Source: Parcubacteria bacterium DG_74_3
Lineage (GTDB): Bacteria > Patescibacteriota > Minisyncoccia > Minisyncoccales > DG-74-3
Length of the DNA stretch: 43,284 nucleotides
Assembly (NCBI GenBank): GCA_001302985.1
Contig: LJNG01000002.1
Location: 71,164 to 114,447, forward strand
Reading direction: 5' to 3'
The notes beneath the pieces were generated by a model. That model was not told the origin of the DNA. It did no database searches and saw nothing but the letters and a program-made list of their open reading frames with translations. Position numbers and translations under genes: made by a program. Below are positions 155 to 38,721 of this stretch, one piece after another (position 1 is the first letter of the stretch; every line of letters begins with the position of its first letter).

Positions 155-218
155 AAGATGCGGTGGGAGAAGAATTCGAACCTTCGGTACCCTCATCGGA
201 TACACCTGTTTTTCTCGA

Positions 219-332
219 CCCCGTAAGAAAGCGGAGGGTGGAGGATTTGAACCTCCGAGGGGATTGCTCCCCAACTGGTTTTCAAGACCAGCGCTTTAAA
301 CCACTCAGCCAACCCTCCGCCTTTCTACGGGG
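219..332 (-). repeat. Clamp-bounded insert in the outer tRNA-Ser: CCCCGTAGAAAG-[tRNA]-CTTTCTTACGGGG
   Basis: Terminal inverted repeats at 219-231 and 321-332; same CCCCGTA/TACGGGG ends as the insert at 36961-37066. Confidence 0.75.
232..318 (-). tRNA. tRNA-Ser(TGA), nested
   Basis: GGAGGGT/ACCCTCC acceptor, anticodon arm TGGTCTTGAAAACCA (TGA), long variable arm, T-arm GGAGG-TTCAAAT-CCTCC. Confidence 0.9.
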
Positions 333-379
333 CAAGCAGGCCCGTTCGTCCACTCCGGCATCCCACCTTTTTAACTTTT

Positions 380-19436: not shown

Positions 19437-19509
<73 letters not shown>

Positions 19510-22654: not shown

Positions 22655-22664
22655 GACAAGAAGG

Positions 22665-22752
22665 CGGTGGGGGTGAGACTCGAACTCACATGAGTATTGC
22701 TACCCTCCGCTTTTCGAGAGCGGCACCTTAACCAAATTCGGTACACCCCACC
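22665..22752 (-). tRNA. tRNA-Ser(CGA)
   Basis: GGTGGGG/CCCCACC acceptor; CCGCT-CTCGAAA-AGCGG; long variable arm. Confidence 0.9.
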
Positions 22753-24463: not shown

Positions 24464-24492
24464 TCAATTTTATGCCCCTGACAGGAATTTCA

Positions 24493-24594
24493 CCCCGCAC
24501 TATTTAATGCCCCCACCAGGACTCGAACCCAGATCAATGGCTTAGGACGCCACTGCTCTATCCATTGAGCTATGGGGGCCACAAGGGTGCGGGG
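24493..24594 (-). repeat. Clamp-bounded insert in outer tRNA-Arg: CCCCGCAC-[tRNA]-GTGCGGGG
   Basis: Perfect 8-bp terminal inverted repeat at 24493-24500 and 24587-24594. Confidence 0.7.
24508..24579 (-). tRNA. tRNA-Arg(CCT), nested
   Basis: GCCCCCA/TGGGGGC acceptor; GTGGC-GTCCTAA-GCCAT; CTGGG-TTCGAGT-CCTGG. Confidence 0.9.
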
Positions 24595-24711
24595 CGGGCC
24601 TGTATCAGAACCTTAGGAGGATTCTGTTCTATCCGTTGAACTACAGGGGCAGGTTTCGTTTTCGATTTCCAATAATAGCATTTTTTCTTTTAGTTGACAA
24701 TAAATTTATGG

Positions 24712-36809: not shown

Positions 36810-36882
36810 CGGGGCATGGTGTAATGGTTAACATTCACGCTTTGGGAGCGTGCGATTCCCGGTTCAAATCCGGGTGCCCCGA
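36810..36882 (+). tRNA. tRNA-Pro(TGG)
   Basis: CGGGGCA/TGCCCCG acceptor, A73; CACGC-TTTGGGA-GCGTG; CCCGG-TTCAAAT-CCGGG. Confidence 0.9.
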
Positions 36883-36960
36883 CTTTATAAGCCAGATCGA
36901 CTCTGTAGAATGAGGTTACGGTGCGGGAGTAATTCAGCGGTAGAATTTCTCGCTTCCAAG

Positions 36961-37066
36961 CCCCGTATAAATCTTGCGGGATTAGTTGAGCGGCTCAACG
37001 TCACCCTTCCAAGGTGAAAAGGTGGGTTCAACTCCCATATCCCGCTTAATACAATTTTGTACGGGG
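36961..37066 (+). repeat. Clamp-bounded insert in outer tRNA-Gly: CCCCGTA-[tRNA]-TACGGGG
   Basis: Perfect 7-bp terminal inverted repeat at 36961-36967 and 37060-37066. Confidence 0.75.
36976..37046 (+). tRNA. tRNA-Gly(TCC), nested
   Basis: GCGGGAT/ATCCCGC acceptor; TCACC-CTTCCAA-GGTGA; T-arm GTGGG-TTCAACT-CCCAT. Confidence 0.88.
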
Positions 37067-37147
37067 GCAGAGAGAGGGTCGTGGGTTCAAATTCCGTCTC
37101 CCGCTCCCCGAAAAATTCGCTTCGCTCATCTCGGGATGAGCCAAAAT

Positions 37148-37191: not shown

Positions 37192-38721
37192 TTACTTTGC
37201 GTATTCAACAACTCTGGATTCTCTTATCACATTCACCCTTATTTCCCCTGGATATTTTAAATCCTCTTCAATTTTCTTAGCAATATTTTGAGCCAATTGT
37301 TTTGCTCCAAGATCATTTATTTCTTCGGGTTTTACAAAAATTCTTAGTTCGCGACCAGCCTGAATCGCATAGGCCTTTTCAACCCCGGAAAACGAAGTGG
37401 CAATGTCTTCAAGATCAGATAGTCGCTTAAGGTAGTTTTCCAAAGTATCTTTTCTTGCTCCGGGTCTAGCACCTGAAATTTGATCTGCTGTTTGAACTAA
37501 AATCGCTTCAATTGTCTCTGCTGGATATTCTTCATGATGGGATTTCATTGCACTAATGACCTCTTTTTCTATCTCAAATTTCTCTAAAATCTTAATTCCG
37601 ATATCTACATGAGAGCCCTCAACTTGTTGGTCAACAGCTTTACCAATATCGTGTAAAAGTCCTGCTTTTTTACAAATTGTAGTGTTGGCCCCAATCTCAG
37701 AAGCTAAGGCGGTGGCGAGATGAGATACTTCTATTGAATGGAGTAAAACATTCTGGCCATAACTGGTTCTAAATCGCAATCTGCCAAGTAGGTGAATCAG
37801 TTTAGGATCCAACCCCAAAACCCCGGTTTCATAACAAGCGGTCTCTCCTGTCTCTTTAATGATATCGGTAATTTCTGATTTGGCTTTTTTAACCTGCTCT
37901 TCAATGCGGGCAGGCTGAATTCGACCATCAGCAATTAATCTTTCTAAAGCCAATTTAGCAACTTGGCGTCTAATTGGGTCGAAACCAGAAATAACAACTA
38001 TTTCTGGTGTTTCATCAATAATAATTTCTACGCCTGTTAATTGTTCCAAAACCCTAATATTTCTTCCTTCTTTACCGATTATTCTACCTTTTACTTCCTC
38101 ATTGGGTAAAGAACAAGTAGTAGTAGTAATTTCTTGGGCTTGGCTTAAGGCGTATCTTTGGATTGCTGTTGCTAAAATTTCTTTGGCCCTTCTTTCGAAT
38201 CTTTCCTGTCCTTCTTTATCTAATTTGCGCATCCTTTCCAAAACTTCTTTTTGATGCTCTCTCTCCAAATCCTTAAACAATTCTTCTTTTGCTTCTTTTC
38301 TAGAAAGGTGAGAGGTTCTTTCGAGATTCTCAAGGGATTTTTCTCTTAAGACCTCTATTCCTTCTTTTATCTCTCTAAGTTTTTTTGCTTTATTCTGAAA
38401 TTCTTTTTTCTGCTCTTCAAAATCAGCAATTCTTTCATCTAATGCTTGCTCTCTTTTTAATAAAAGTTTTTCGCCATTGAAAAGATCACGCCGTCTAGCG
38501 TCTATTTCTCGTTTTATCTTTTCTCTTGTGCGAAAAGCAACTTCTTCAGCTTCGGCAATAATTTTCTTTGCCTGAGCTTTGGTTTGAGAAATTTTTTGTT
38601 GAAGTTTTTGTTCTAAGGTACCAGCTCTTTTTTGAGCAATTGATTGACGGGCATAGTAACCCAAAATAGAGCCTATTGATAGGGAAACTATACCCACTGT
38701 TAGGGGGATAAATTGATTCAT
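37192..38721 (-). CDS. rny: Ribonuclease Y
   Basis: N-terminal TM plus coiled coil, KH domain (VKGRIIGKEGRNIRVLEQLTGVEIIIDETPE), HD domain (AGLLHDIGKAVDQQVEGSHVDIG). Confidence 0.97.
   Translation of the reverse strand: MNQFIPLTVGIVSLSIGSILGYYARQSIAQKRAGTLEQKLQQKISQTKAQAKKIIAEAEEVAFRTREKIKREIDARRRDLFNGEKLLLKREQALDERIADFEEQKKEFQNKAKKLREIKEGIEVLREKSLENLERTSHLSRKEAKEELFKDLEREHQKEVLERMRKLDKEGQERFERRAKEILATAIQRYALSQAQEITTTTCSLPNEEVKGRIIGKEGRNIRVLEQLTGVEIIIDETPEIVVISGFDPIRRQVAKLALERLIADGRIQPARIEEQVKKAKSEITDIIKETGETACYETGVLGLDPKLIHLLGRLRFRTSYGQNVLLHSIEVSHLATALASEIGANTTICKKAGLLHDIGKAVDQQVEGSHVDIGIKILEKFEIEKEVISAMKSHHEEYPAETIEAILVQTADQISGARPGARKDTLENYLKRLSDLEDIATSFSGVEKAYAIQAGRELRIFVKPEEINDLGAKQLAQNIAKKIEEDLKYPGEIRVNVIRESRVVEYAK

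Follow-up and report, generated by a model that had tools for sequence, protein, structure and literature searches.

Palindromic elements that lie within genes are known from Rickettsia, and in this respect they resemble the cassettes described here; unlike those cassettes, none has tRNA cargo to our knowledge. The palindromic REP/BIME repeats are mobilised by TnpA-REP transposases of the Y1/HuH type (PMC8266576, PMC3733652), and REP palindromes bear tetranucleotide tags (PMC8266576). Genes for tRNAs are themselves established targets of mobile DNA, as integrative elements and prophages use them as attB sites via tyrosine recombinases, inserting at the anticodon and T-loops (PMC2647930) such that tRNA function is preserved. 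Archaea possess split and intron-containing tRNAs (PMC4390854, PMC4090602), the split forms consisting of tRNA halves with complementary flanks at the anticodon loop, and group I introns occupy an anticodon-loop site in bacterial tRNAs.

The locus considered here has points of likeness to each of these systems. The window, that is, the whole stretch of DNA analysed, comprises 43,284 nucleotides from Parcubacteria bacterium DG_74_3, a small-genome CPR bacterium (544 kb, 97% complete). At 36923-37105, one Gly(TCC) gene encloses a second, complete Gly(TCC), an arrangement (locus C) that was proposed by a sequence-only reading of the window and that the sequence, ARAGORN and Rfam confirm:

36810 to 36883, plus strand: tRNA-Pro(TGG), called by ARAGORN; upstream syntenic anchor, a neighbour also in L476
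36923 to 36960, plus strand: 5' half of the outer, putatively native tRNA-Gly(TCC), GCGGGAGTAATTCAGCGGTAGAATTTCTCGCTTCCAAG through CTTCCAAG, from sequence, ARAGORN and comparison with G003
36961 to 36971, plus strand: left arm of the cassette, CCCCGTATAAA, an inverted repeat with the conserved ends CCCCGYA
36976 to 37046, plus strand: inner, complete tRNA-Gly(TCC), from ARAGORN and Rfam RF00005
37056 to 37066, plus strand: right arm of the cassette, TTTGTACGGGG, inverted repeat
37067 to 37105, plus strand: 3' half of the outer, putatively native tRNA-Gly(TCC), with CTCCCGC at 37098-37104, from sequence, ARAGORN and as counterpart of the G003 gene
37192 to 38721, minus strand: RNase Y-like (rny) gene, an ORF identified by eye; downstream syntenic anchor, its 3' end also following Gly(TCC) in L476

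The cassette is 106 bp long, splits the outer gene in its anticodon loop, and is fully occupied by its arms and an intact tRNA, with no integrase gene inside. Its arms form an 11-nt inverted repeat that is 91% complementary, and the inner tRNA scores 59.2 bits against RF00005. When introns are allowed, ARAGORN also calls the outer Gly(tcc), placing a 102-nt intron at position 37. As read from the sequence, the rejoined outer tRNA has 7/7 acceptor pairs, 4/5 anticodon-stem pairs, with the 31:39 pair lost, and three G:U pairs in its T-stem; the sequence-only reading was accurate on the last two features, and the anticodon that it found common to inner and outer is general among related loci. The 183-nt strand folds with -67.9 kcal/mol (z = -3.8 against dinucleotide shuffles), and in the minimum-energy fold the arm helix lies below the inner cloverleaf and is closed beneath by the outer acceptor stem. 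On sequence comparison, the locus is probably the work of a palindromic non-coding cassette that spreads laterally, enters a matching tRNA gene and persists by supplying the replacement, the outer halves being relics.

Set against the known systems, such a cassette is distinctive. Integrative elements are kilobases long, carry an integrase and restore only the interrupted part of the gene, whereas the cassette is ~100 bp, possesses no ORF and brings a complete second tRNA. Group I introns share the anticodon-loop site, but the insert at locus C is too short and has no group I catalytic core, only tRNA reaching the Rfam gathering score, and other cassettes lie in D- and T-loops. Unlike archaeal split tRNAs, the arrangement occurs in a bacterial host, with a dispensable outer gene, an empty allele in relatives and an intact tRNA as the insert. 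The likeness to REP/BIME elements extends to small palindromes that favour particular 4-nt words at their flanks and are putative non-autonomous elements, and cassettes here also occur free of cargo; however, the cassettes end in CCCCGYAC, lack a GTAG-like tag 5' of the palindrome (their flank words being CYYG/TRAA-like), carry a whole tRNA and are located in tRNA loops, and the DG_74_3 genome has no Y1_Tnp. A hairpin with a complete replacement tRNA differs from all of the systems compared, and a mobile cassette so tiny is apparently undescribed. That statement is provisional, as the literature searched, in which no matching description of nested tRNA genes, CPR tRNA introns or such palindromic elements was found, consisted largely of openly accessible papers.

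The genome has four nested loci, three of them within the window. The pattern CCCCGYA-N80-110-TRCGGGG has three matches in the window, as against none in 100 shuffles, and five in the genome, as against none for a reversed control pattern. Four of the five genome matches contain a tRNA, namely Gly(TCC) at locus C and Ser(TGA), Arg(CCT) and Arg(CCG) at the following loci:

161 to 367, minus strand: locus A, outer tRNA-Ser halves at 333-367 and 161-218, cassette at 219-332, inner Ser(TGA) at 231-318; inserted in the anticodon loop, CTTG-cassette-TCGAG
24473 to 24650, minus strand: locus B, outer tRNA-Arg(CCT) halves at 24595-24650 and 24473-24492, cassette at 24493-24594, inner Arg(CCT) at 24508-24579; inserted in the T-loop, CCCG-cassette-TGAAATT
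contig C2, outside the window: locus D, nested Arg(CCG)

The fifth match has no tRNA and lies at the 3' end of gyrB (contig C4:13615-13718; L035, L037), where the gene ends in EVFPRKKFIQIHAKKVKNLDI before its stop codon and is followed by an inverted CCCCGCAAG and then by a second copy of the end, AKKVKNLNI and stop; the locus looks like a displaced gene end, but its left arm is ordinary gyrB coding sequence. Elsewhere in the genome, at contig C17:19979-20100 (L017), GATGCGGGG and a solitary 3' tRNA end, TCGGTTCGATTCCCGATAGGGGCACCA, come after Glu(CTC), and no 5' tRNA half was seen just upstream; this is possibly an old nested locus that has since lost its left side. At contig C6:21868-21970 (L013), Lys(TTT), at the end of the contig, precedes another solitary 3' tRNA end, GTTCGAGTCCTATCGCCGGAGCA, and the window's Ser(CGA) (22663-22752, minus strand) reaches just 34.4 bits against the tRNA model, far under its neighbours.

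The tRNA complement of the genome bears on which copy works. In stretches spanning about 539 of its 544 kb, the host possesses 46 intact tRNA genes, essentially one per anticodon; for Gly(TCC), Ser(TGA), Arg(CCT) and Arg(CCG), the nested inner tRNA is the one intact copy. In G088, all 47 tRNAs are single-copy except Met and Ser(CGA), and each of eight nested inner tRNAs is the sole copy, again except Ser(CGA); the eight include Val(TAC), Ile(GAT) and Ser(TGA), presumably essential tRNAs. Being sole intact copies, the inner tRNAs must, to judge from these gene sets, be functional. The same sets suggest no requirement for the outer tRNAs, and the outer gene at locus C appears redundant. Outer genes keeping every stem pair occur at locus B and in L111, L243 and L277; these could still be in use, or could simply be young.

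An empty version of the site exists in a relative. In G003, of the same family and a different genus, Pro(TGG), an uninterrupted Gly(TCC) and the 3' end of rny follow one another in the host's order, with no inner tRNA (L476). Over the 5' half, the outer gene is identical to this syntenic Gly(TCC) at 33/38 positions and the inner at 29/38, the 3' halves being non-discriminating. The synteny and the closer match of the outer half argue that the outer gene is native and at its ancestral position, and that the insert came later. The converse case is found in G001, also of the same family, where the Gly(GCC) of a Leu-Val-Phe-Gly array is nested (L475, G001:C11:5845-6004; arms CCCCCCACTTTT/AAAAGTGGGGGG, with the entire anticodon arm replaced), whereas the corresponding array in the window has an intact Gly(GCC), at 19437. 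As the L475 arms differ, the search pattern captures just part of the cassette family. Similarly, the Asp(GTC) nested in G201 has an uninterrupted counterpart at the syntenic position in G131, and that of G044 is uninterrupted too.

These observations bear on an alternative that treats the insert as an intron: the transcript of the outer gene would be cut at the base of the hairpin and ligated to yield a second functional tRNA, with the inner tRNA as a by-product, in essence a cis version of archaeal split tRNAs. The arms keep the outer halves together, the outer tRNA of locus C has its full acceptor stem and a normal T-loop, and RtcB is encoded here, by a full-length RNA ligase gene at contig C2:25539-26834 that is also present in the host family. 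Splicing of outer tRNAs is nonetheless unlikely because RtcB is missing from 12/21 genomes tested; its distribution is patchy in the class, and the RtcB-less genomes include the 100%-complete, cassette-bearing G010, G027, G054 and G086. Many related outer genes are half lost or contain further hairpins, the T-loops of rejoined B-type loci, as read from their sequence, lack T54-T55-C56, and no group I intron was found with Rfam. The functional spliced outer tRNA implied by the sequence-only reading is thus not supported, given that the inner tRNA is the sole intact Gly(TCC), that related outer genes range from perfect to half deleted, and that RtcB is so often missing. That reading had also named, beforehand, an uninterrupted outer gene without an inner copy in a relative as evidence against it, and this is what the G003 locus presents. 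Taken together with the redundancy of the outer gene, the intron explanation is very unlikely.

The bare pattern is present in 113/383 genomes of the class. A stricter search, which required a tRNA T-loop between the arms and covered 71 pattern-positive genomes, was positive in 29/71, with no hit for the reversed-pattern control in the same 71. When cassettes from other scans are included, roughly 38/383 genomes possess tRNA cassettes, a minimum figure that should not be taken as an estimate from a random sample. In all, 80 distinct tRNA-bearing cassettes with common ends were collected, representing 14 amino acids, from hosts that are essentially all CPR (Patescibacteria). A named-genome scan placed the nested arrangement in Parcubacteria, Portnoybacteria, Kerfeldbacteria, Doudnabacteria, Falkowbacteria, Uhrbacteria, Wolfebacteria and Kazan, and it also occurs on contig L176, labelled Elusimicrobia (the label is as given, and binning may differ); chance matches are abundant in GC-rich genomes in the genome-collection scan.

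By eye, nearly all 80 cassettes lie in the D-, anticodon or T-loop of a tRNA for the matching amino acid. The best match of the flanks among other inner tRNAs agrees in amino acid in 60/80 cases, where chance gives 11%, a statistic that partly reflects general tRNA similarity within isotypes. Amino-acid similarity was used in place of automatic rejoining by ARAGORN, which recovered 31/80 outer tRNAs and scrambled anticodons at anticodon-loop junctions; for rejoined outers with D- or T-loop junctions, the anticodon agrees in 9 of about 10. Compared with tRNAs for the same amino acid, 67/80 cassettes have one or both outer halves above the 99th percentile of shuffles, and 33 have both; the other 13 are mostly outers with one half missing. 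Extra GC-rich hairpin inserts are often seen in outer D- and T-loops (L119, L121, L223, L226, L228, L076). Cassette arms without a tRNA occur at intergenic places, and tRNA-less cassettes with matching ends lie, by eye, within the RNase P RNA gene (rnpB) of two related genomes (L230:986-1087 and L236:501-603).

Positions 1-5 and 7 of the arms are set by the search pattern, and covariation was judged on the variable positions: position 9 is Watson-Crick in 72/80 cassettes (shuffle maximum 43), and positions 11 and 12 in 68 and 65 of 80 (shuffle maxima 53 and 49). Such compensating changes, in counts that kinship inflates, show an apparently maintained helix rather than providing evidence of helix function. 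The flank words are CCYG-cassette-TGAA at T-loop sites, CTTG-cassette-TCGA at Ser anticodon-loop sites, TTTA-cassette-CG at Leu D-loop and Pro anticodon-loop sites, and CAAG-cassette-CAAG at Gly(CCC) sites. A clean 4-bp duplication of the flank exists at four loci only, three of them Gly(CCC) loci with CAAG and the fourth with CGAA, and removal of the cassette and one CAAG yields a perfect Gly(CCC) tRNA. The junction of locus C, CCAAG-cassette-GCAGAGAG, can be interpreted as a Gly(CCC)-type site that has since diverged, in which case the loss of the 31:39 pair would be explained.

The choice of site also helps weigh an alternative without homing, in which tRNA-carrying palindromes land randomly, copies elsewhere are deleted, and only those that break a matching tRNA gene become indispensable. 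CPR genomes are small, arms without a tRNA do occur at intergenic places and in rnpB, and dispensable C34 anticodons make up 34/80 cassettes, all in keeping with such lock-in. Yet tRNA-bearing cassettes are almost never seen outside a matching tRNA, and an isoacceptor keeps one site across families, as with Ser(TGA) at CTTG-TCGAG and Gly(CCC) at CCCAAG-CAAG, and does so again in three-level nests; random landing is, on balance, unlikely. The outer genes are graded from perfect (L111, L243, L277) to half-lost (L220, L227, L263), as expected if relics decay. Serial nesting is observed at a single site: L178, from Falkowbacteria, contains Gly(CCC) in Gly(CCC) in Gly(CCC), each at CCCAAG-CAAG, and L244 (Ala) and L275 (Ser) are, by eye, also multi-level. 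Each later cassette in a stack presumably hit the copy that was functional at that time.

The closest match of cassette A is a full-length cassette in G088, from another order, with 82% identity over 114 bp including the arms; the next is in G201, at 76%, and same-family G002 and G003 have no match. This distribution supports movement of cassettes between lineages, and it stands against a local origin, in which template switching or duplication at a tRNA hairpin placed a gene within its own loop independently of any mobile element. The isoacceptor common to inner and outer, and inner and outer 3' halves that are near-identical at L228 and L225, would fit such an event. However, the arms are common to different isoacceptors and families, and the inner 5' half at locus C is further from the family's Gly(TCC) than is the outer, so that a local origin is highly improbable.

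For the laterally spreading cassette, the following course of events is proposed. A native, single-copy Gly(TCC) gene would have been split by a ~106-bp non-coding cassette in which ~11-15-bp complementary arms (CCCCGYACYAAA.../...TTTRGTRCGGGG) enclose a complete tRNA of the same isoacceptor as its target. Ordinary tRNA-end enzymes would process the inner tRNA out of the hairpin, and the inner tRNA would take over decoding, leaving the outer halves as a displaced relic. The cassette presumably travels between cells as DNA and may reach the matching tRNA gene through a process akin to homing, the simplest being recombination of incoming DNA with the recipient's intact tRNA gene via the outer halves. 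Recombination of this kind would explain the isoacceptor match, the identical sites and the stacking, and would make a dedicated enzyme unnecessary. As in MITE-like non-autonomous transposable elements, the cassettes have terminal inverted repeats in multiple copies, and the combination of flank words and palindromes led to consideration of IS200/IS605-REP logic; a Y1/REP transposase was rejected as the mover given its absence from the host genome and weak association elsewhere (Y1 transposase in 11/15 cassette-bearing and 7/17 other genomes tested). A tyrosine integrase was likewise rejected, the host genome having one Xer-like recombinase only, on contig C18. As for a viral carrier, 0/121 of the viral pattern matches listed had a tRNA on the matched strand.

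A bolder reading, which we hold tentatively and somewhat short of an even expectation, is that these are isoacceptor-specific homing tRNAs, a new class of selfish DNA in which a ~100-bp hairpin invades, kills and replaces a resident gene, is itself invadable, and spreads across the CPR. How so small a cassette is brought to the correct tRNA gene is the testable question that it raises. Nested cassettes confound the annotation of CPR tRNAs, and their stacked relics would record successive invasions. If the reading is true, essential single-copy tRNA genes would be repeatedly replaceable by a parasite whose sole cargo is the replacement, a kind of gene drive that has no protein of its own, and the cassettes may help to explain why tRNAs are replaced and laterally exchanged in reduced genomes.
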